A stretch of 58,252 nt of DNA from an uncultured Clostridia bacterium (lineage in GTDB: Bacteria > Bacillota > Clostridia > Oscillospirales > Ruminococcaceae): positions 1-58,252 of the forward strand of contig CANPYR010000009.1 in assembly GCA_947588805.1 (NCBI GenBank), read 5' to 3'. How positions within the stretch are numbered: position 1 is the stretch's first letter; the number at the start of each line of letters is the position of its first letter. The position numbers and the translations under genes are program-made. The notes below the pieces were generated by a model. That model had not been told where the DNA came from. It saw only the letters and a program-made list of their open reading frames with translations, and did not search any database. This document shows positions 13,847 through 52,115 of this stretch, piece by piece.

Positions 13847-15781
13847 TTAATTTCTCACTCTGTAATTCAAAGCTCTTAGGGAGTTCAGAATACAGAGCAC
13901 GGTCACTCCTACGTCTGCGAACACCGCGGCCCACATTCCCGCAAGACCCGCTATCTCGAGCGCTATTACCGCAAGCTTCGCGATAAATGCAAGAGCCACG
14001 CACTGATACACTATTTTCATCGTTCGGCGGGAGATCTTTATCGCCGAGGGGATCCTGGAGATCTTATCGTCAAGTATAACTATATCCGCAGTCTCTATAG
14101 CCGCGTCCGAGCCGAGACCTCCCATCGCTATGCCTACGTCCGACGCAGCAAGAACCGGAGCGTCGTTTAAGCCGTCCCCGACGAAGGCTGTGAGTCCCGT
14201 TGAAGACTTTATGCTTTCAAGCTCTTTACATTTCTGCTCGGGGCTCAGCTCTGCTCTTACGTTGGAAATTCCCACAAGTTCGGCCGTTTCCTCAGCGGCT
14301 GTTTTTTTATCCCCGGACAGCATTACGACTCGGTCTAATCCTATCCTTTTAAGCTCCGCTACGGCTTCCCTGCTGTCCGGCTTTAGCTCGTCCTTCAGCA
14401 CTATTTCTCCCGCCGTCTCGCCGTTTATTATTACCGCTACGGATATCCCGGCTCCCGTTCCCTCCGCTTTTCCTACGAATACCTTATCGCCGTTTATATT
14501 CGCGGTCACTCCCCTTCCGGCTTCCTCCGTTATATCGCTTACGGATGAAGTATCGGTTATATTTCCTGCCTTTACTATCGCCTTCGCTATGGGATGAGTC
14601 GAACGGCTTTCAGCTAACGCCGCAAGCTTTAATATTTCATCCCCGCCGCTGCAGGATACTACCGAGAGATTTCCTTGAGTCACGGTTCCGGTCTTATCAA
14701 GAGCGACTGCCGAAAGCTTTGCAGCCGATTCTATCGACGAAGCGCCTTTTACAAGTATGCCGTTTCTTGAAGCGCAGCCGATTCCGGCGAAGAAAGAGAG
14801 CGGGACCGAGATCACAAACGCGCAGGGACAGGATACCACCAAGAGCGTAAGGCCGCGGTAGAACCATTTCGTAAACGTGTCGGAATATCCCGTAAATATC
14901 GGTATCACAAACGCGATCGCAAGAGCGAGGATAACCACCGCTACGGTGTATTTTTTTGCGAAGCGGGTTATGAAGCGCTCGGCAGTCGCTTTTTTCTCCT
15001 GGGCGTTTTCTACCATCTCAAGTATTCTTGCGGAGCTTGATTCAGAATAGGGCTTTGTGATTTTTACTTCTATCGCGCCGGTGGTATTTATCCCGCCGCC
15101 GTAAACGTTATCTCCTTCGGAACGTCTTTCGGGAAGGGATTCGCCTGTCAGCGCGGAATTATCTATCAGAGTCTCTCCGCTTATAATTATTCCGTCTAAC
15201 GCTATTCTTTCGCCGGGCGAAAACATTGCTATATCCCCCGCCGCCGCTTCTTCGAGCGGGACTTTTACCGGGACTCCGTCTTTTTTTAGAGTAACTTGGT
15301 CCGGTCTCAGCTTCAAAAGCGCGGTCACGGATTTTCTTGAGCGCTCGCAGGCTATATCCTCCAAAAGCTCTCCCACAGTATAAAACAGCATGACCGCGAC
15401 GGCTTCGGTACCTTCGCCTATCGCCCACGCGCCTACAGTCGCTATCGACATTAAAAATTCCTCGTCTATTGAATGCTCTTTGAAAAGCTCTGTCGCGGCG
15501 CTTATTATTATCTCCGCGCCGACGATAAGATACGCGGCGGCAAGAAGCGCGTAACGAGGAACGCCGTGCAAAAACAGGGCGGCGATAAAGAGCGCTCCGG
15601 AAAGGATTATTTTTATAACGTCCTTTTTTATATCGTCTTTGTCGCTCTCCTCCGAGAGCTTTTCTTCGCAGCGGCAGCTCCCGCATTCTTCATGCGCGCA
15701 GTCCTCGCGGCGATCGTGACCGTGATGAGAACGCTGCTCCTTATCGGCTTTTGCGGGTTCGATCAAAACGTTCGTTTCCAT
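13847..15781 (-). CDS. cadA: Heavy-metal P-type ATPase (Zn/Cd/Pb efflux, CadA/ZntA type)
   Basis: 644 residues. It pumps soft divalent metal out of the cell using ATP. It has the metal-binding CPC motif in a membrane helix (SCPCAFV near 320), phosphorylation site DKTGT near 368, the HP motif (THPIAKAI near 407) and hinge GDGLNDAP near 540. The N-terminus lacks the usual HMA domain and instead carries a short His/Cys-rich tail (HHGHDRREDCAHEECGSC) that likely binds metal. The CPC class cannot by itself separate Zn/Cd from Cu, but the partner ArsR gene and His/Cys tail favour Zn/Cd. It is 21 bases after the repressor and in the same operon. Confidence 0.9.
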   Translation of the reverse strand: METNVLIEPAKADKEQRSHHGHDRREDCAHEECGSCRCEEKLSEESDKDDIKKDVIKIILSGALFIAALFLHGVPRYALLAAAYLIVGAEIIISAATELFKEHSIDEEFLMSIATVGAWAIGEGTEAVAVMLFYTVGELLEDIACERSRKSVTALLKLRPDQVTLKKDGVPVKVPLEEAAAGDIAMFSPGERIALDGIIISGETLIDNSALTGESLPERRSEGDNVYGGGINTTGAIEVKITKPYSESSSARILEMVENAQEKKATAERFITRFAKKYTVAVVILALAIAFVIPIFTGYSDTFTKWFYRGLTLLVVSCPCAFVISVPLSFFAGIGCASRNGILVKGASSIESAAKLSAVALDKTGTVTQGNLSVVSCSGGDEILKLAALAESRSTHPIAKAIVKAGNITDTSSVSDITEEAGRGVTANINGDKVFVGKAEGTGAGISVAVIINGETAGEIVLKDELKPDSREAVAELKRIGLDRVVMLSGDKKTAAEETAELVGISNVRAELSPEQKCKELESIKSSTGLTAFVGDGLNDAPVLAASDVGIAMGGLGSDAAIETADIVILDDKISRIPSAIKISRRTMKIVYQCVALAFIAKLAVIALEIAGLAGMWAAVFADVGVTVLCILNSLRALNYRVRN

Positions 15782-15802
15782 AATTCTTCTCCTTATATAA
15801 AT

Positions 15803-16201
15803 TTATTCGGATATATGCTCAAGACCTGTCGCCAGCATCGTCGATACATGGCTGTCGGCGATAGAATAGTAGAGCGATTTCCCATCTCGGCGGTATTTTA
15901 CAAGACCCGCCTGCTTAAGAGTCCTGAGCTGATGAGAGACTGCCGACTGAGTAACTCCGACCAGCTCCTGGATATCGCATACGCACATCTCCCCTCCTAA
16001 AAGCGAGAAAAGGATCCTCACCCTCGTCATATCCGATAGAGCCTTGAAAAGCTCGCTCACGTAATACGCTTCCTCTTCGGTTATCATCTTATCGGCAAAC
16101 CGCTTCACAAGCTCGATATTCTTCCCGCCGCATTCTATATGGCGCGGGCAGTCCGAGCAGCCGTTTTCAGATTCGCAGAAATTTTTGTCATGTTCTTCCA
16201 T
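15803..16201 (-). CDS. ArsR/SmtB-family metal-sensing repressor (CadC/ZntR type)
   Basis: 132 residues from the ATG at 16201, behind AAAGGAG; the longer frame to 16372 runs through the promoter and operator and is rejected. The N-terminus has cysteines (FCESENGCSDCPRHIEC) as in CadC-type sensors. The winged helix follows (RVRILFSLLGGEMCVCDIQ, then VTQSAVSHQLRTLKQAGLV), and the C-terminal alpha5 helix has DSHV as in the SmtB/CzrA zinc site. It should repress itself and cadA until metal binds. Both thiol and alpha5 sites seem present, but the metal actually sensed is inference. Confidence 0.9.
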   Translation of the reverse strand: MEEHDKNFCESENGCSDCPRHIECGGKNIELVKRFADKMITEEEAYYVSELFKALSDMTRVRILFSLLGGEMCVCDIQELVGVTQSAVSHQLRTLKQAGLVKYRRDGKSLYYSIADSHVSTMLATGLEHISE

Positions 16202-16218
16202 GGTATCGCTCCTTTCAA

Positions 16219-16278
16219 CATATGAATAAGTGTTCATTTGTTTATTTATATTATACTCGGGATTGTGGGAATTGTCAA
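16219..16278 (-). promoter_or_regulatory. Promoter and ArsR/SmtB operator of the metal-efflux operon
   Basis: Minus strand TTGACA (16278-16273), 17-base spacer, TATAAT (16255-16250). The inverted repeat ATGAATAAGTGTTCAT lies at about 16222-16237, just downstream of the -10. It has the imperfect 12-2-12 look of SmtB/CadC operators, so bound repressor would block transcription. Confidence 0.8.
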
Positions 16279-16376
16279 GGGGGTGGGAGAAAAAATTTTT
16301 TTGGGCGGCGGGACGAGCTGCTTCTGCCATCTTCTGACAGCCGACTTCCCATCCAAAATTATTTTCCGTCATGCAC

Positions 16377-16576: not shown

Positions 16577-17425
16577 TTGTCAAAAAAACAACGAAACATC
16601 AGTCTTATCGTCTTCGGCGTTCTTGCGCTTATCATCCTTGTCGGGATAATCCTTATCCCCGGACAGGAAAAAGAGCCGATTCAGCAAGCGATGAAGGACG
16701 GAGTCCTGCACGACCGCAACCGCGTCGGCCTTTTCGGCCTGAACGTGAACCCGGGGCTTATATCCGCTTTTACCGTGACCGGGATAATTACCGTTTTCGC
16801 AGTCATAGTCAGGATATTCGTTATCCCGAAATTCACCGAGGTCCCCGGTAAATTCCAGCTCGTCCTGGAGACTGCGGTAAAATATTTCTCCGGTCTTGCG
16901 AAAAATAACAGTCCCCACCGAAACGGCTTTTTAGGCGCGTATGTTTTCGCGGCGGGAGTATATGTAGCCGTGAGCACGGTGTTCGAGCTGCTGGGACTCC
17001 AGGCGGTGACGACCGAGGGCGCTTCGGTAACTCTCCCCGCTCCCCTTGCGGACATTAACGGCGCTATCGCTATGGGATTTATGTCCTACGGAGTTATTCT
17101 TGTGAGCGGCATAATCTACGGAAAGGCTCACGGCGCTATAAACGCTCTCAAGGACTTCTCTCTCCCGATATCTATGAGCTTCCGTCTCTTCGGAGCGCTC
17201 TTAAGCGGCGCGCTGGTAACGGATCTTGTATATCACTACACGGCGCTGAGCTTTGTACTTCCGGCCGTGGTCGCGGTACTCTTCACTCTTCTCCACGCGA
17301 TAATACAGACCTACGTCTTAACTATGCTCGTATCGGTATTCTACGGAGAGAGCACCGAGGAGCGTCATAAGGAAAAGAAGCCGAAAAAGAAAAAATCTAA
17401 AGCAAAATCAGAAGCAAACGCTTGA
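16577..17425 (+). CDS. atpB: F-type ATP synthase subunit a
   Basis: 282 residues from a TTG at 16577, behind AGGCGGTGA. The frame is open further upstream to 16427, but that stretch lacks a ribosome site and does not look like subunit a. It forms the half-channels of the Fo rotor-stator interface. There are five or six membrane helices. The essential arginine is in SMSFRLFGALLSGALV, equivalent to Arg210 of E. coli. The C-terminal helix has HAIIQTYVLTML, followed by a very basic tail (KKPKKKKSKAK). It is first in an operon ordered a, c, b, delta'-alpha, gamma, beta, epsilon. Confidence 0.93.
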   Translation: MSKKQRNISLIVFGVLALIILVGIILIPGQEKEPIQQAMKDGVLHDRNRVGLFGLNVNPGLISAFTVTGIITVFAVIVRIFVIPKFTEVPGKFQLVLETAVKYFSGLAKNNSPHRNGFLGAYVFAAGVYVAVSTVFELLGLQAVTTEGASVTLPAPLADINGAIAMGFMSYGVILVSGIIYGKAHGAINALKDFSLPISMSFRLFGALLSGALVTDLVYHYTALSFVLPAVVAVLFTLLHAIIQTYVLTMLVSVFYGESTEERHKEKKPKKKKSKAKSEANA

Positions 17426-17439
17426 AAGGATATGATGAT

Positions 17440-17802
17440 ATGAAAATACTTAAAACGGTTTTGGCGGCGCTTGTTGCCGCAGTGATGGTAATGTCGATGA
17501 GCGCGGCGGTATTCGCCGCCGGGGAGAATTCCTCTCAGGAGAACGGCGCTGTAGCCGAGGTAGAATCCGAAAACACGGTCCGCGACTATAAGGCCATAGC
17601 CGCCGCCGCGATAATAGGTCTTGCCGCCGCAGCCGGCGCTATCGCGATGGCGCTCACGATAATGAAATCTATAGACGGGATTGCAAGGCAGCCCGAAGCT
17701 TCCTCAAACATCCGCTCCGTGATGATGCTCGGACTCGTCTTTATCGAGACCGCTATTATCTACGCCCTTATCGTGGCGATCCTGGTCGTATTCGTACTTT
17801 AA
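17440..17802 (+). CDS. atpE: F-type ATP synthase subunit c with N-terminal signal peptide
   Basis: 120 residues, against the usual 75-90. The start at 17440 follows GAAAGGA. Residues 1-26 form a typical signal peptide (MKILKTVLAALVAA ... SAAVFAAG) followed by about 20 acidic, polar residues. Then come the two c-ring helices with the polar loop DGIARQPEA between them and the ion-binding Glu in VFIETAIIY. The glutamine that helps bind sodium in Na+-type rings appears to be a methionine here, so protons are more likely, though Thr after the Glu is compatible with either. If the signal is cleaved, the mature N-terminus would lie outside the membrane, as in normal c topology. Confidence 0.9.
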   Translation: MKILKTVLAALVAAVMVMSMSAAVFAAGENSSQENGAVAEVESENTVRDYKAIAAAAIIGLAAAAGAIAMALTIMKSIDGIARQPEASSNIRSVMMLGLVFIETAIIYALIVAILVVFVL

Positions 17803-17820: not shown

Positions 17821-18306
17821 TTGCCGCTCAATATTGATTTTCAGCAGATTCTTTTACACATGCTGAATTTTACGATACTCTTCGCGGTGCTTTATTTCCT
17901 GCTCTATAAGCCGGTAAAGAAGTTCATGGACGACCGCGAAGCGGAATATAAAAAAGATTCCGAGGAAGCGAAGGGAAAGCTTAAAATGGCCGAGGACGCG
18001 CTTAACGGACTCGACGCTAAGCTCTCCGAAAAGGAAAAGGAAGCAGAGAAAAAACGCGCCGAGCTTCTTTCGGACGCTCAGGAGCAGTATAACAAAAAAA
18101 TCGCGGACGCTGAGTCGGACGCTAAGAGGATCTTAGACGACGCGAGAGAACAGGCCGACGCTATCAGGAAAAAGGCCGTCGCACAGTCGAGCGACGATAT
18201 CTCTAAGCTTGCGATAGCTTCTGTCAAAAAGACCGTCTTAAGCGCGGACGAAGCCTTCGACGCTTTCCTGGAGGCCGTTGAAAAGGACGCGGGAGATGAA
18301 TACTAA
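17821..18306 (+). CDS. atpF: F-type ATP synthase subunit b
   Basis: 161 residues from a TTG at 17821, with GAAAGGGG upstream. It has one N-terminal membrane helix (about 8-28, ILLHMLNFTILFAVLYFLLY), the characteristic KPVKKFMDDRE, and then a long charged coiled coil, the peripheral stalk. The last 30 residues (SSDDISKLAIASVKKTV) are the part that in other enzymes holds the delta subunit. The gene overlaps the next by 11 bases. There is no atpH between it and alpha. Confidence 0.93.
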   Translation: MPLNIDFQQILLHMLNFTILFAVLYFLLYKPVKKFMDDREAEYKKDSEEAKGKLKMAEDALNGLDAKLSEKEKEAEKKRAELLSDAQEQYNKKIADAESDAKRILDDAREQADAIRKKAVAQSSDDISKLAIASVKKTVLSADEAFDAFLEAVEKDAGDEY

Positions 18307-20024
18307 GAATAAGCTTAAGACCGCTAAGCTTTTTTCCAAGGAAAAGCCGAACGCGGAACAAACCGAGAGGTTTGAAAGATTTATTAAATCCCACTACGGC
18401 GAGGACTGCGCTCTTGAATGGGTAGAGGACGAAAGCCTTAGCGACGGATTCAGGCTGGAAGCCGGAGAGGATATTTACGACTGGAGCCGCGAGGGAAGAC
18501 TCCGTCAGCTCAGCGACGTTTTATCCTCCATCGAAGCCGACGACTCCAAAAAAGTTATCCCTATGCTGAAAGAAGCCGTGGGGAACTGGACTCCGAAAGC
18601 GGTGGCAGAGGAGATCGGTACGGTTCTCACCGTCGGCGACGGAGTTGCGACGGTAAGAGGGCTTTCAAAATGCGAATACGGCGAGATACTCTTATTTGAA
18701 GGCGGCGTAAGAGGGATGGTACAGTCGGTCACGTTAAGTCATATCGGCTGCATGCTCTTTGACGACGACGGCGCAGTGACCGCTGGCAGCAAGGTTCATC
18801 GCACTAAAATGGCGGCGGGAGTTCCCGTCGGCGAAGGCTTCATAGGAAGAGTCACAGACGCGCTCGGAGTGCCGATAGACGGAAAGGGCGAGATAATCGC
18901 CGCCGAACACAGACCGATTGAAAGTCCGGCTCCTCCTATAGCCGCGCGCCAGCCCGTAAACAAGCCCCTTAAAACAGGGCTTTTGGCGATAGACGCGATG
19001 TTCCCGATAGGAAGAGGTCAGCGCGAGCTTATAATCGGCGACCGCCAGACGGGTAAAACCGCGATCGCTATCGATACCATTCTAAACCAGAAAAACGAAG
19101 ACGTTATCTGCGTCTACGTCGCGATAGGACAGAAGGCAAGCTCGGTTCGCAGGCTGGTAAAGGTCTTGGAGGACGCGGGTGCGATGGAATACACCGCCGT
19201 TATCCTTGCCGCCGCGAGCGACTCCGCGCCTATGCAGTATATCGCTCCGTATGTCGGCTGCACCATGGCTGAGTACTTCATGAAGCAGGGGCGGGACGTT
19301 CTTATCATCTACGACGACCTCTCTAAGCACGCCGTCGCATACCGCTCCCTGAGCCTTGTCTTAGGAAGAAGCCCCGGCCGCGAAGCTTATCCGGGAGACG
19401 TATTCTATCTTCATTCAAGACTTTTGGAGCGTTCCGCTCACCTGTCGGCCGCTAAGGGCGGCGGCAGCATGACCGCTCTTCCGATAGTCGAAACTCTTGC
19501 GGGAAACGTATCCGCTTACATCCCGACAAACATTATCTCGATAACCGACGGTCAGATCTTTCTTGATTCTTCCCTCTTCCGCTCAGGGCAGCGGCCTGCG
19601 GTAAACGTCGGTCTTTCGGTTTCAAGAGTCGGCGGCGACGCTATGACTCCCTGTCTCAAGGGAGCCGCCGGAAGCCTGCGTCTCGAGCTTGCGCAGTACC
19701 GCGAGATGAAGGTATTTACGCAGTTCTCTAACTATCTTGACGACGATATACAAAAAAATCTCCGCTTCGGAGAAGTTCTTATGAGCATCTTAAAGCAGGA
19801 GCAGTACAGGCCGTATTATGAGTGGGAGCAGACGGTAATTCTTGTCGCAGCTATCTCCCACTGTCTCGACGGCGTGCCGCAGGAGAGATTCGAGGAGAGC
19901 TTAAGAAAGCTCTGCGACGGCTTTTCAAGGGCATACCCCGATTCGGTCGAAAGAATTAAGACCGGCGAAAAGCTCTCGGACGCGGATCGGTCCTGCATAA
20001 CGGAATACGCAAAGGCGGCGGGAT

Positions 20025-20035
<11 letters not shown>
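18296..20035 (+). CDS. atpA: F-type ATP synthase alpha subunit with delta C-terminal domain fused at its N-terminus
   Basis: 579 residues, about 80 longer than a normal alpha. The start at 18296 follows AAAAGGA. Residues 1 to about 78 resemble the C-terminal domain of delta (AtpH): TAKLFSKEKPNAEQ, then GFRLEAGEDIYDWS and a closing RLRQLSDVL. Alpha proper follows, with EIGTVLTVGDGVATVRGL near 105, Walker A GDRQTGKT, and the arginine-finger segment LSVSRVGGDA. The N-terminal six-helix domain of delta, which normally caps alpha, is missing, and no separate atpH lies in the operon. Non-catalytic nucleotide binding and stator anchoring are the likely roles. Base composition and overlaps match the neighbours, so it is not obviously recent. 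Confidence 0.9.
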
Positions 20036-22739
<2,704 letters not shown>

Positions 22740-41453: not shown

Positions 41454-43673
41454 ATGACAAAAAATCTTTCTGACCCACGCCCTAACGGGGAGCAGTCTCC
41501 CATGAAAAATAATTTGACCGTGACCGTTTTGGATGTAAACGGAAGGGCAGTGGGTAAAACATACCCAAAACGAGCCAAAGGGCTTGTCAAAAAAGGTCGG
41601 GCGGAAGCCCTGACCGAGAACGTTATCCGTCTCAGGGATATCCGTCCGCATGATATTACGGAGGAAAATTCTATGGATAACAATTTGAATAAAGGCATTT
41701 CCGAAAACACCTTAAGCAATAACATTAACGCCGACAATACGGCTGTCAATTCGTCCGCGGAACCCGTTCATATCCCCTTCGATCCCCGCGAGTGGTACCC
41801 TAATCCCAAGACTCTTTACACTAACAGCTGCGAAAGACTTATGTATAACTCTTTTGACGGCGCTCGGGATGAGATCTTCTCCCTCGGCAGCTTTAACGGC
41901 AACCGCCGCTCGGAAATTATCTCTCGCCTTATTCCGGTCGAGCCGGGCGGGGATTATTCCTTTACTTTCTGGCTCAACGGCGGCGAGAACGACCGCGGCG
42001 ACGATATCTGCCGCTTGCTGGCGATCTATACCGATTTCGACGGCGCAGATAACTCCGGCCGCTCGGACGGCGAAATCCCCGAGGACGATATGCAAAGAAA
42101 GTATACATACGTACTGAACCGCGGCCAGACTCCTTTTCTTAAAGAGTTAGACGGCTGGTATCTCTTTGAAATATCGCTTCCGAAGCCGGATAAAAAATAT
42201 CTTGAGCTTCGCTTCTGCGCGGAGAACGCGCCTATGGCCCTGCGCCATGCGGATAGAGCGGAAGCGTATAAGGATCTCGAAAATAAGCCGGATCCGTATG
42301 CCGAGTACCGCCCGCAGAGACATAACATCTTCTTCAGGGACGGCTGGCCGGAGGACAAACCCGGCGTTCACGGGAACAATTACTCTACCGGAGCGATAAA
42401 GCGAACGCTTGAAGAGGAAAAGGCTAAGGCCGAAGCTCGCGAGCGGGATAAGGCCGAATGGAAAAGGCTCATTGAGGAAAAGATAGAAAATATCAAAAAG
42501 AACGGCTATAACTCCGGAACGCTTGTTATAAACGGCGTTACCGTCTCGAATATCGAGGATCTTGATTCAGTCGATACCGACGCTATGGCCGAAAAATTTG
42601 TCAGGCAGTTTAACGACCGCCTTGGGTGCGGCAGCTCGCCGACATATTCCTTTGAAAGCGCGCCGAAGCTCTCTAAAAGGATGAAGCGGACCGCCGAAAC
42701 TATAAAGTCTCTCAAGGACTTTGACGGAACCGTAGTCGTAAACGGCGTTGAGCTAAATATTTCCGACCTCATAGAGCTTGCCGATCAGGCGGATAAGGCT
42801 CTATCGGACGGCGAGAACCGCGGCTTCAATCCCGACGCCGTTTCACGTCTTGACCGCATGATCGAGCAGATAACTCCGTTTGCAGAGCATAATTATCATC
42901 CCGTTCTCAGCGCTCTGAAAACCCGACTCGAACAGTGCCGGGACGCGTTTGCGCAGGGAAACGACAGCGTAGGCTTCGTTATGCTCAAAAGAGCCTGCAT
43001 ATACGCAAGACCCGCAAGAAAAAACCCAAGCTTTTTAAACGGCGTGAGAATAAACGATATTATCTGCGATATGGAGCTTCTCCGCGACGAGCTTAAATCT
43101 AAGCTTGAACTATCTTCAAAAAGAGCTCACGGCTCAGATTATCGGGATCCGGAAGACGGGATCGACTACGACGAGCTTGCCGAGACGGTTGCTGAGAACA
43201 TCGATATAGACGATGTCGCCGAAAATATTGACCTTGAAGAGCTTGCGGATAACTTGGACATGGAGGAGCTTGCGGAATGCGTGGGTGAGAACATAGCCGA
43301 GAATATCGATCTTGACGATCTTGCAGAGAGCTTAGACATGGACGAGCTTGCGGAAAAGGTCGCGGAGGAGATCGATTACGACGAGCTTGCCGAGACGGTT
43401 GCGGAAAACATCGATATAGACGACGTCGCCGAAAATATTGACCTTGAAGAGCTTGCGGATAACTTGGACATGGACGAGCTTGCGGAATGCGTGGGTGAGA
43501 ACATAGCCGAGAATATCGATCTTGACAATCTTGCGGAGAGCTTGGACATGGACGAGCTTGCGGAAAAGGTCGCGGAGGAGATCGATTACGACGAGCTTGC
43601 GGAAGCGATAGTCGAAAAGATCGAGCTCGACGAGATCGCGGAAGCGATTGCTAAAAAGCTGAGGGGAAAATGA
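41454..43673 (+). CDS. Large repeat protein with N-terminal RRXRR/PLMP-like domain
   Basis: 739 residues, GAGGAGAGAG before the ATG. Residues about 20-62 (TVTVLDVNGRAVGKTYPKRA then GLVKKGRAEALTENVIRLRD) resemble the RRXRR/PLMP domain that heads IscB-type proteins, but no RuvC or HNH follows. Residues about 100-230 look like a beta-sandwich (PVEPGGDYSFTFWLNGGEND). Helical and coiled segments lie at 310-345 and 455-535, and two related beta motifs (GTLVINGVTV, GTVVVNGVEL) lie between. The tail (570-739) is acidic, with two 70-residue units and a partial third. No signal peptide or membrane helix is seen. Function unknown. Confidence 0.7.
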   Translation: MTKNLSDPRPNGEQSPMKNNLTVTVLDVNGRAVGKTYPKRAKGLVKKGRAEALTENVIRLRDIRPHDITEENSMDNNLNKGISENTLSNNINADNTAVNSSAEPVHIPFDPREWYPNPKTLYTNSCERLMYNSFDGARDEIFSLGSFNGNRRSEIISRLIPVEPGGDYSFTFWLNGGENDRGDDICRLLAIYTDFDGADNSGRSDGEIPEDDMQRKYTYVLNRGQTPFLKELDGWYLFEISLPKPDKKYLELRFCAENAPMALRHADRAEAYKDLENKPDPYAEYRPQRHNIFFRDGWPEDKPGVHGNNYSTGAIKRTLEEEKAKAEARERDKAEWKRLIEEKIENIKKNGYNSGTLVINGVTVSNIEDLDSVDTDAMAEKFVRQFNDRLGCGSSPTYSFESAPKLSKRMKRTAETIKSLKDFDGTVVVNGVELNISDLIELADQADKALSDGENRGFNPDAVSRLDRMIEQITPFAEHNYHPVLSALKTRLEQCRDAFAQGNDSVGFVMLKRACIYARPARKNPSFLNGVRINDIICDMELLRDELKSKLELSSKRAHGSDYRDPEDGIDYDELAETVAENIDIDDVAENIDLEELADNLDMEELAECVGENIAENIDLDDLAESLDMDELAEKVAEEIDYDELAETVAENIDIDDVAENIDLEELADNLDMDELAECVGENIAENIDLDNLAESLDMDELAEKVAEEIDYDELAEAIVEKIELDEIAEAIAKKLRGK
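43161..43673 (+). repeat. 210-bp tandem duplication within the PLMP-like gene
   Basis: Unit 1 is 43161-43370, unit 2 is 43371-43580, and a partial third starts at 43581. The units encode 70 residues each and differ by only a few bases, so duplication is recent. Within a unit, a shorter motif D-[ILMY]-[DE]-[DE]-[LV]-A-E recurs every 9-17 residues. Confidence 0.9.
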
Positions 43674-49522: not shown

Positions 49523-51739
49523 CTACCGCCTCTCCTCAATCCTTACCAGGCCCGCGATCACCTCTACGTCTTCCTTTTCGATCATCCCGCTGTCAAACTC
49601 AAACGCCGCATAGACGTTCAGATCGGCGTTATAGGAAAGTATCCCGTAATTTTCCCTGCCGTCGCGCATGACAGCTACGGTCGCGATCTCAAAGGTCGCG
49701 TTTGAAATCAGGCGCTTGTACGTTCCCTCAACGTCGAACCGCTCTGAGATGGGGGCGTAAATATCCCTTTCGCTGCGCGTGGTTTCCGGGCTGTATTCGT
49801 CAAACGAAACAGCGCCGATTGCCGCTCCGTCCGCGTTGTAAATATTCCACTTCCCGTTCGGCATGAAATCAAGATACGGATTTTCTCCGTCGCTCCTTGA
49901 AACGCTCATTCCGTCAAGAAGCCGGAAGTAAATGTCAAACTCCCTGCCGTCGCCAGAAGCGTAGTCCCCGGAAGATACCGAAACCGTTTGGTTCAGAGTC
50001 ACGATCTGCGCAATAGTAACCGTTCTGAGGATATTTTCGCACCGCTCCTCAAAGCCGCTGTCATCGGGGTCGGTTTTGATGAAGTTTACATACATGCACC
50101 ACTCGCCGTCTCTGACAATATATGTCGAATTCTCGTAGTCTCCCGACATGAAGCTGACAATGCTTCTACTTTTGAACAGATACGGCTCCTCGGGCGACCA
50201 TTCATGTTCGCCCTCCTCCAAGACCCTCACGTTTTCCGCTTCGCCATCGACAGGCGTATAATCTTTCGGAAGCTCCGTGCCCACCGGGAACTGGCGGAAG
50301 AAGTCGGGGTTATAGTCATCGGCTGGGAATGGATTTCCGATGATTTCGAGCGCCTTACCGTTTTCGTCGTCAGCAACTGAAAAGCCGTTGAAATTCCAGT
50401 TTTCGGGCAGAGCGAATCTTACGCTCAGATAGTTGTCGGTCTCATAATCGGTAAGCTGCCAGCTCGGCGCACCCTCCGGTTTTTCGAGGTGCGCGGCGAG
50501 CATCGATGTCTGATGTTCGGTATATCCGTCCGGAACGGTAAAACCGGTATTCTCCGGCTCGGGCTGCGGCTGCGGCTCGGGATTTTCGGGATTCGGCACT
50601 TCGTTTTCATCGCCGACGTTCGCGGGACCGTCGGTAACAGGCGGGTTCATATCTTCCTCGTTGGGAGTAACATCGGAAACGCTATCGGGGATCTTCGAGA
50701 ACCCTATAACCGCCCCGACAATAACTACCAGCACCGCCACGGCGATCAGAAGCACCGCTCCGCTCTTTTTGTTGAATTTAGTCATTATATTTAAAAACCT
50801 CTTCTTTAATATTTTTTTGCCGCCGGCAAATCCGGTCGACAGCCCGCTCGGTGCGGGACTTTTTTCGGCTATAGTCGAATAAATAGCCTCGGTATACGCC
50901 TTTTTTACATCAAATCCGGCGTTCGCGACCACGCCGTCGTCAACGGAAAGCTCCATATCCACATCAGCCCTCCGTCTCATCAGCCATACAAGCGGGTTGA
51001 ACCAGTGCAGCGAAACCGCCGCCGCCATCAGAAGCTTCACCCAAATGTCGCGGCGCTTAAAGTGTATAAGCTCGTGTTTGATAATAAAGCTCATCTGCTC
51101 CTGCGTATAATCCGCGCGCGGCAGAACCATTATCGGCCTGAGATATCCCATTATCATCGGCGTGGGCGCGTCGGGCGAGTATATAAGCTCAAGCCGCCCA
51201 TGCGGAGCCACCTCCCGCCGAAGCGATATAAAGGTATCATACGCCGAGCCCTCGGTGAGTTTACAGCCGTGTTTTCGCATCTTCCTCTTATAAAGCAGAA
51301 AAGTTGAAAGCTGTCCTGCAAACAGTATTACCGCTCCCGCCGCCCAGACCGCAGACATGACCGAAAGCGGCGATGCGGATTTATTTATCCCGCCGTCGGA
51401 TTCCGTCTCGCTCGGTCGGCTTATCGGTTCCACAAGCCGCTGAGGTATTACTATCTCAAATCTCGGATAGGTCCTTCCCGGGCGGTAATCTTCGGTCCCG
51501 GTTCCGGTCTCGGATGAATAGATCGCTCCCTGCTCCTCGGCCGCCTTATCGCTCCCCGACGGGAACCATCCTATCGGGATAAGAAGTCTCAGAGCTATCA
51601 CCGTCCATATCCAAAACCGCCACTTTGCGGCATAGCGCTGATCCACGAGCGAAGAAAACGCTAAAAATATCCCGATAAGTATCCCCGCCGAAAGCGACGC
51701 TCCGAGGATCCCGACAAAAATCTCACTCACGGTTCTCAC
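49523..51739 (-). CDS. BlaR1/MecR1-type M56 metallopeptidase sensor
   Basis: 738 residues. Four membrane helices surround a cytoplasmic zinc protease site HELIHFKRRD near 216 (HEXXH). A fourth helix follows at about 320-345 (SGAVLLIAVAVLVVIVGAVI), then a Pro/Glu-rich linker and an extracellular domain of about 350 residues that is not a penicillin-binding fold (no SXXK at the expected place). In BlaR1 a signal outside triggers cleavage of BlaI. Here the sensor part is different, so the signal is probably not a beta-lactam. It overlaps the BlaI gene by 17 bases. Confidence 0.87.
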   Translation of the reverse strand: MRTVSEIFVGILGASLSAGILIGIFLAFSSLVDQRYAAKWRFWIWTVIALRLLIPIGWFPSGSDKAAEEQGAIYSSETGTGTEDYRPGRTYPRFEIVIPQRLVEPISRPSETESDGGINKSASPLSVMSAVWAAGAVILFAGQLSTFLLYKRKMRKHGCKLTEGSAYDTFISLRREVAPHGRLELIYSPDAPTPMIMGYLRPIMVLPRADYTQEQMSFIIKHELIHFKRRDIWVKLLMAAAVSLHWFNPLVWLMRRRADVDMELSVDDGVVANAGFDVKKAYTEAIYSTIAEKSPAPSGLSTGFAGGKKILKKRFLNIMTKFNKKSGAVLLIAVAVLVVIVGAVIGFSKIPDSVSDVTPNEEDMNPPVTDGPANVGDENEVPNPENPEPQPQPEPENTGFTVPDGYTEHQTSMLAAHLEKPEGAPSWQLTDYETDNYLSVRFALPENWNFNGFSVADDENGKALEIIGNPFPADDYNPDFFRQFPVGTELPKDYTPVDGEAENVRVLEEGEHEWSPEEPYLFKSRSIVSFMSGDYENSTYIVRDGEWCMYVNFIKTDPDDSGFEERCENILRTVTIAQIVTLNQTVSVSSGDYASGDGREFDIYFRLLDGMSVSRSDGENPYLDFMPNGKWNIYNADGAAIGAVSFDEYSPETTRSERDIYAPISERFDVEGTYKRLISNATFEIATVAVMRDGRENYGILSYNADLNVYAAFEFDSGMIEKEDVEVIAGLVRIEERR

Positions 51740-52115
51740 GCTCCAGTTCGTCGATATAATCCCTCAGCTCCCGAAGGTCGTCGTCTTTAAGAAGGTCGTT
51801 CTTGTAAAGAGTCGCGACGAGACTGCGCGCTGAATTGTTGTAGAGCCTTTTCAGGAAGTTTTCGCTCGCTCCGGCCTTGTAATCGTTTTCGCTCACCGTC
51901 GCCGAATAGCTGTTCATCCCCTCGCTCCGCGTGCACTTGACATACCCCTTGTCCTCAAGGCGGTAGAGCGACGACATCAGAGACGAAAGCGGCCAGTCCC
52001 TGCGGCCTTTGAGCTTGTCGCGTATCGCCACCGAACTAAGCGCCTTATCCTCTGACCAGATCGCCTGCATGATCTCAAGCTCGGCTTCGCCCAGTTTTTT
52101 CAGATTGTTTTTCAA
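51723..52115 (-). CDS. BlaI/MecI-family repressor
   Basis: 130 residues. The winged-helix domain (LGEAELEIMQAIWSEDKALS, then WPLSSLMSSLYRLEDKGYV) and the C-terminal dimer arm (SENFLKRLYNNSARSLVATL) fit the family. It is the partner of the downstream M56 sensor and should bind the paired operators in its own promoter. GAGGTGAT lies upstream of the ATG. Confidence 0.9.
   Translation of the reverse strand: MKNNLKKLGEAELEIMQAIWSEDKALSSVAIRDKLKGRRDWPLSSLMSSLYRLEDKGYVKCTRSEGMNSYSATVSENDYKAGASENFLKRLYNNSARSLVATLYKNDLLKDDDLRELRDYIDELERENRE

Follow-up and report, generated by a model that had tools for sequence, protein, structure and literature searches.

How is the head of an F-type ATP synthase joined to its b stalk when the operon holds only the C-terminal domain (CTD) of subunit delta, and this domain sits on subunit alpha? 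The question is raised by an atp operon in a stretch of 58,252 nucleotides (contig CANPYR010000009.1; hereafter the window) from an uncultured gut bacterium (Clostridia, Ruminococcaceae). An initial annotation, made without database searches, had read the N-terminal extension of alpha in this operon as delta CTD. Our profile and model comparisons confirm this: the first ~78 residues of the 579-aa alpha are a delta/OSCP CTD. The fused gene is composed as follows:

18296..20035, plus strand: fused deltaCTD-alpha gene, 579 aa
18299..18520, plus strand: delta/OSCP CTD, residues 2-75, equivalent to PF00213 positions 97-171 and also recovered by model, fold match and PDB profile match
18545..18583, plus strand: alpha N-terminal helix retained behind a short linker, residues 84-96, a helix in both models, consensus VIPLLKxAVxxF
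18545..20032, plus strand: ATP synthase alpha proper, TIGR00962 match over residues 84-567

The fused protein scored 663.3 bits against TIGR00962 (F-type alpha, curated cut-off 484.45) and 26.6 bits against PF00213 (delta/OSCP, gathering score 22.3). A profile search of residues 1-80, as the initial annotation had advised, leads to the CTD part of the delta/OSCP family. TIGR01145, which describes the full delta/OSCP subunit, gave 25.7 bits against a threshold of 57.5 and matched at positions 97-172 only, leaving the region of the N-terminal domain (NTD) unmatched. For the N-terminal profile of the window family the top PDB match was 9jc1_I (580 aa; E 4.5e-11), where positions 8-98 of the profile align with residues 5-98 of the chain, and this match runs collinearly over deltaC, linker and alpha helix, i.e. 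across the junction. No delta NTD was found in the window operon. With the CTD in the alpha chain and no NTD encoded beside it, alpha would be tied to b directly, as had been proposed, and the likeness to 9jc1_I supports this attachment well.

The assumption that no delta-alpha case was known does not hold. 9JC1 is a structure from a paper on an enzyme of this kind that was built in the laboratory in 2025, and natural Acidaminococcus cases are named there as well (Ueno et al. 2025, PMC12229609). According to the available text of that paper, the delta NTD lies on the threefold axis and holds the enzyme to one stalk. With the NTD deleted and the CTD joined to alpha, the engineered enzyme carried as many as three stalks, an a subunit accompanying each, reached an H+/ATP ratio of 5.8 ± 0.4 versus 3.0 ± 0.2 and made ATP at about half the proton motive force, while its activity was lower. 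The authors proposed that nature may likewise use multi-stalk enzymes, and their Discussion lists natural fusions without NTD (Acidaminococcus fermentans, UniProt G4Q3K6, A0A1I2C5T3). The window protein resembles this delta-delta-N-alpha FoF1 of Bacillus PS3 (PDB 9JC1/9JC2) in the lost NTD, in the CTD placed on the alpha N-terminus via a short linker, and nearly to the residue in length (579 versus 580 aa). However, the PS3 construct is a single designed protein whose epsilon CTD was removed, whereas the window protein is natural and belongs to an operon that retains the epsilon CTD. The fusion of Acidaminococcus fermentans is also a delta-alpha without delta NTD, a likeness taken from the paper's description, and Acidaminococcus belongs to the class Negativicutes, the window to another class (Clostridia). 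The mycobacterial b-delta fusion differs in that whole delta is joined to b and not to alpha; in the window, b is a separate 161-aa gene and not one chain with delta. By its genes, the window enzyme is a natural counterpart, outside Negativicutes, of an architecture known since 2025. New here are the spread in the genus and in Clostridia, the genomes with the fused enzyme as sole rotary ATPase, the several origins and the other delta arrangements of relatives.

Since the window protein is so similar to the 9jc1_I construct, we take it to work like the engineered one. We lean towards a functional F-type ATP synthase whose alpha subunits all have a delta CTD of their own and are thereby tied to b directly. 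The CTD holds the upper end of the b stalk; the delta NTD, which sits on the F1 threefold axis in ordinary enzymes and permits one stalk, is missing here. Three equivalent sites per F1 could then take up additional b2-a units, more ions would be moved per ATP, and ATP could be made (or the enzyme stand poised for reversal) even when the ion-motive force is low. The chief consequence, an F1 with three sites for b and perhaps several stalks, goes beyond the initial annotation. We infer the several stalks, the raised ratio and the ion specificity alike; more than one stalk in the natural fused enzyme is plausible.

Several points speak against this proposal. Three CTDs are no proof of three stalks, and just one of them may be occupied; even for the engineered enzyme, cryo-EM showed hardly any particles with three stalks, and SDS-PAGE indicated about two per F1 (PMC12229609). 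The whole-protein model of the fused alpha has low confidence in its alpha core (mean pLDDT 66.9), the proton specificity of the fused enzyme depends mainly on a single lost ligand, and the full-length delta in every fusion-bearing genome of the genus could in principle act in trans. The alternative that survives best, possible though clearly less probable, is a functional fused enzyme with one stalk: one of the three CTDs would bind b2, the other two would be idle or fill the F1 top, and the fusion would mainly be a convenience for assembly or anchoring at an ordinary ion/ATP ratio. The gene dosage in the operon fits this, as it gives no sign of extra copies of a or b:

16580..17425, plus strand: atpB, subunit a (PF00119, E 1.3e-16); start uncertain, 16427 or 16580
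17446..17802, plus strand: atpE, subunit c (PF00137), with Met where the Na+ ligand Gln32 would be in the alignment
17821..18306, plus strand: atpF, subunit b, 161 aa, TTG start (PF00430, E 1.6e-16); its stop overlaps the start of the fused gene
20025..20930, plus strand: atpG, subunit gamma (PF00231, E 1.7e-75)
20941..22329, plus strand: atpD, subunit beta (PF00006, E 9.4e-71); the start taken is the first internal ATG of the open reading frame at 20911
22326..22739, plus strand: atpC, subunit epsilon (PF02823 and PF00401)

The order is thus a-c-b-alpha-gamma-beta-epsilon, with a and b as one gene each and every gene open. Against a single stalk stand the engineered homologue, which accepted up to three (PMC12229609), and fusions of b, deltaC and alpha in one chain, which would place a membrane anchor on each alpha.

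Could the fused enzyme instead borrow the missing domain? In the window genome (86% complete, 53 contigs), OSCP matches at E up to 10 numbered two, the fused gene and a full-length atpH (C4:23290-23787, E 2.9e-42), the latter belonging to a second F-ATPase operon, which is complete and encodes delta and alpha (502 aa) as separate proteins. The earlier claim that no gene for the NTD is left is therefore correct for the operon but not for the genome, and a full-length atpH elsewhere, on whose absence the fusion had been staked, does exist. This does not undo the fusion, because in two genomes (G292, G313) the fused enzyme is the sole rotary ATPase and no NTD was detected. Full-length delta accompanies the fusion in 14 of 14 genomes of the genus, as would be needed if the fused enzyme used the NTD or whole delta of the cell's second, ordinary F-ATPase, but the same two genomes make such borrowing quite improbable. 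Exactly two PF00006 matches, equivalent to one rotary ATPase, were obtained in five of 25 tested genomes (G104, G272, G287, G292, G313). In G292 (100% complete, 3% contamination) and G313 (99%, 1%) this one enzyme is a CTD-only fusion whose seven operon genes are all open. G313 has no other OSCP signal genome-wide and G292 has one at chance level only (E 0.275 in an 810-aa frame); an NTD in either would have to be strongly diverged. As for the remaining three, the b-deltaC-alpha enzyme is the only rotary ATPase found in G272 (88% complete), G287 carries a full delta-alpha fusion, and G104 is not relied on because its gamma and beta are in pieces.

The window's relatives share the fusion, as the initial annotation had asked to be checked: CTD-only fusions occur in 14 of the 31 genomes of the genus, the window's included (frames of 583-619 aa, with G023 slightly below the Pfam cut-off), and in many Clostridia families. 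The operon order is the same in 13 genus relatives, although in L028 the contig end removes the end of beta and epsilon. In codon comparisons of 11 pairs, dN of the CTD was 0.10-0.34 versus a dS of 0.41-3.2 (one not estimable), with dN below dS in all ten estimable pairs, while dN of alpha was 0.03-0.17. The CTD is, by these estimates, faster evolving than alpha, yet constrained by purifying selection. Only four of the 14 sequences contain an internal in-frame start accompanied by a Shine-Dalgarno-like motif, at differing places, and none that would yield alpha is conserved in position among the 14. That the operon is decaying, chimeric or misassembled could be suspected from the draft state of the window genome, but is hardly credible given the selection on the CTD, the open operon genes and a junction that is the same in 13 other genus genomes and also in other families.

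N-ATPases, alternate Na+-translocating F-ATPases, also lack a separate delta and are found beside a main ATPase (PMC5706428), and the b model TIGR03321 of this group has a delta-CTD-like end (L202 residues 95-166, E 1.7e-9). Their operon, as far as described in PMC5709465, begins with beta-epsilon, followed by a-c-b-alpha-gamma. An N-ATPase identity of the window enzyme is contradicted, and thus extremely unlikely, by a score of 604.3 bits for TIGR03324 (N-ATPase alpha) below the cut-off of 750.5, by the gene order, by the short b with the CTD on alpha instead of on b, and by the absent Na+ ligand at position 32.

The ligands of the c subunit also bear on the division of labour between the two F-ATPases. 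Na+ is bound by Gln/Glu32, Glu65 and Ser/Thr66, and in a single-hairpin c subunit the loss of even one ligand likely hampers Na+ binding (PMC2359735). The c subunit of the second, ordinary operon retains Glu32, Glu65 and Thr66, whereas that of the fused operon has Met at position 32, a state shared by 14 of 14 fused operons of the genus, the window's included. The fused ATP synthase is therefore probably proton-coupled by this residue pattern. Since RnfC is also encoded in the window genome (E 9.7e-147), we infer that one cell holds an ordinary Na+-type and a fused H+-type F-ATPase, and the fused enzyme, with its proton-type looking c subunit, would work beside the ordinary one.

Beyond the genus, the CTD profile of the genus matched inside a single open frame of at least 560 aa in 32 of 297 genomes of the family, with alpha verified in the same frame for 25 of the 32. 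With a broader profile, at least 58 of 394 genomes of the order (11 family codes; alpha verified in 25 of the 58) and at least 35 of 391 of the class (verified in 17 of the 35) carry such frames; these counts are minima for matching frames, those without verified alpha being judged by frame length. In a sample of 398 genomes of the phylum, there were 18 matches at E 1e-10 that lay outside the class, always in a frame of delta size. Among the carriers are Ruminococcus sp. YE71 (L084), Oscillospiraceae UBA11540 (L082) and a Clostridia genome assembled from a horse-gut metagenome (L081). Our survey suggests that the deltaC-alpha architecture is common among Clostridia, originated on more than one occasion and can serve a cell as its sole rotary ATPase.

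Relatives show further arrangements of delta. All eight full delta-alpha fusions (669-680 aa; L065, L066, L069, L148, L149, L156, L157, L186) match PF00213 from position 3-23 to 170-172, while in Ruminococcus fusions with an NTD remnant (L084, whose fused alpha has 606 aa, L086, L089, L139) the match starts at position 78-84. Stand-alone CTD genes of 72-74 aa lie beside alpha in L195-L201, with PF00213 from position 104-116 in all seven; they stand between b and alpha in L195-L200, the contig of L201 stopping before b. Two CTDs precede alpha in one chain in L202 (4041-6068, plus strand), and L203 and L204 encode a separate delta of the form NTD-CTD-CTD. Alphas of the Saccharofermentans type (645-654 aa, 11 loci, two of them checked with Pfam) have the CTD and ~70 further residues.

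At eight loci, b, deltaC and alpha form a single chain of 735-767 aa (L147, 5112-7322, minus strand, and L188-L194). All eight match Pfam OSCP from position 96-100 as well as ATP-synt_B, the latter above the 28-bit cut-off in L188, L189, L190, L192 and L194 and below it in L147, L191 and L193. Each has a hydrophobic stretch within the first 35 residues, so that such chains would give each alpha its own membrane anchor, and each locus keeps a separate upstream b-like gene (140-152 aa) with a hydrophobic stretch of its own. One genome (G671) encodes two different fused F-ATPases, deltaC-alpha on contig C36 (L170) and b-deltaC-alpha on contig C31 (L194). The single-chain form was not met in the available text of PMC12229609, and neither these chains nor the stand-alone CTD genes appeared in our literature search results, although no search named either directly.

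A tree of 88 chosen alpha cores, with the extensions left out, required at least seven changes for the fusion and at least six for the presence of the NTD under parsimony. All eight b-deltaC-alpha rows fall into one clade (100/100) and all seven stand-alone CTD rows into another (100/99), while a single clade of all fused rows was rejected (p-AU 7e-46). On this tree the deltaC-alpha fusion arose several times independently. Because separate delta (L063), full fusion (L069, L066/L156) and NTD-truncated fusion (L084, L089, L139) are nested on starred branches in the Ruminococcus group, and because L186/L183 are a second sister pair of full and CTD-only fusion (100/90), the natural reading in these two cases is fusion first and NTD loss later. 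The window's own clade shows the end state only.

Taken together, we give about even chances to a scenario in which the delta NTD, as the limiter to one stalk, was lost repeatedly, in two traced cases after delta-alpha fusion. In one clade the b-deltaCTD-alpha chain would hard-wire three stalks, and the window genome would have two F-ATPases that differ in gearing and perhaps also in their ions. If true, the ion/ATP ratio could evolve through stalk number and not through c-ring size alone, and anaerobes at low ion-motive force would be where this tuning happened. It is on the b-deltaC-alpha single chain that the existence of multi-stalk enzymes in nature could be judged most directly. Our survey extends the three natural sequences named in the available text of PMC12229609 to a frequent and recurrent architecture in Clostridia.

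Some minor features of the window complete the description. Subunit a closes with a lysine-rich tail (17357-17425; KKPKKKKSKAKSEANA). Head to head with the atp operon lie what we take to be a metal P-type ATPase-like gene and an ArsR/SmtB-like regulator (13847-16372, minus strand), and a further pair at 49523-52115 (minus strand) presumably encodes a BlaR1-type peptidase and a BlaI-type repressor. At 41454-43673 (plus strand) a 739-aa protein is encoded, the C-terminal part of which is long, acidic and repetitive.
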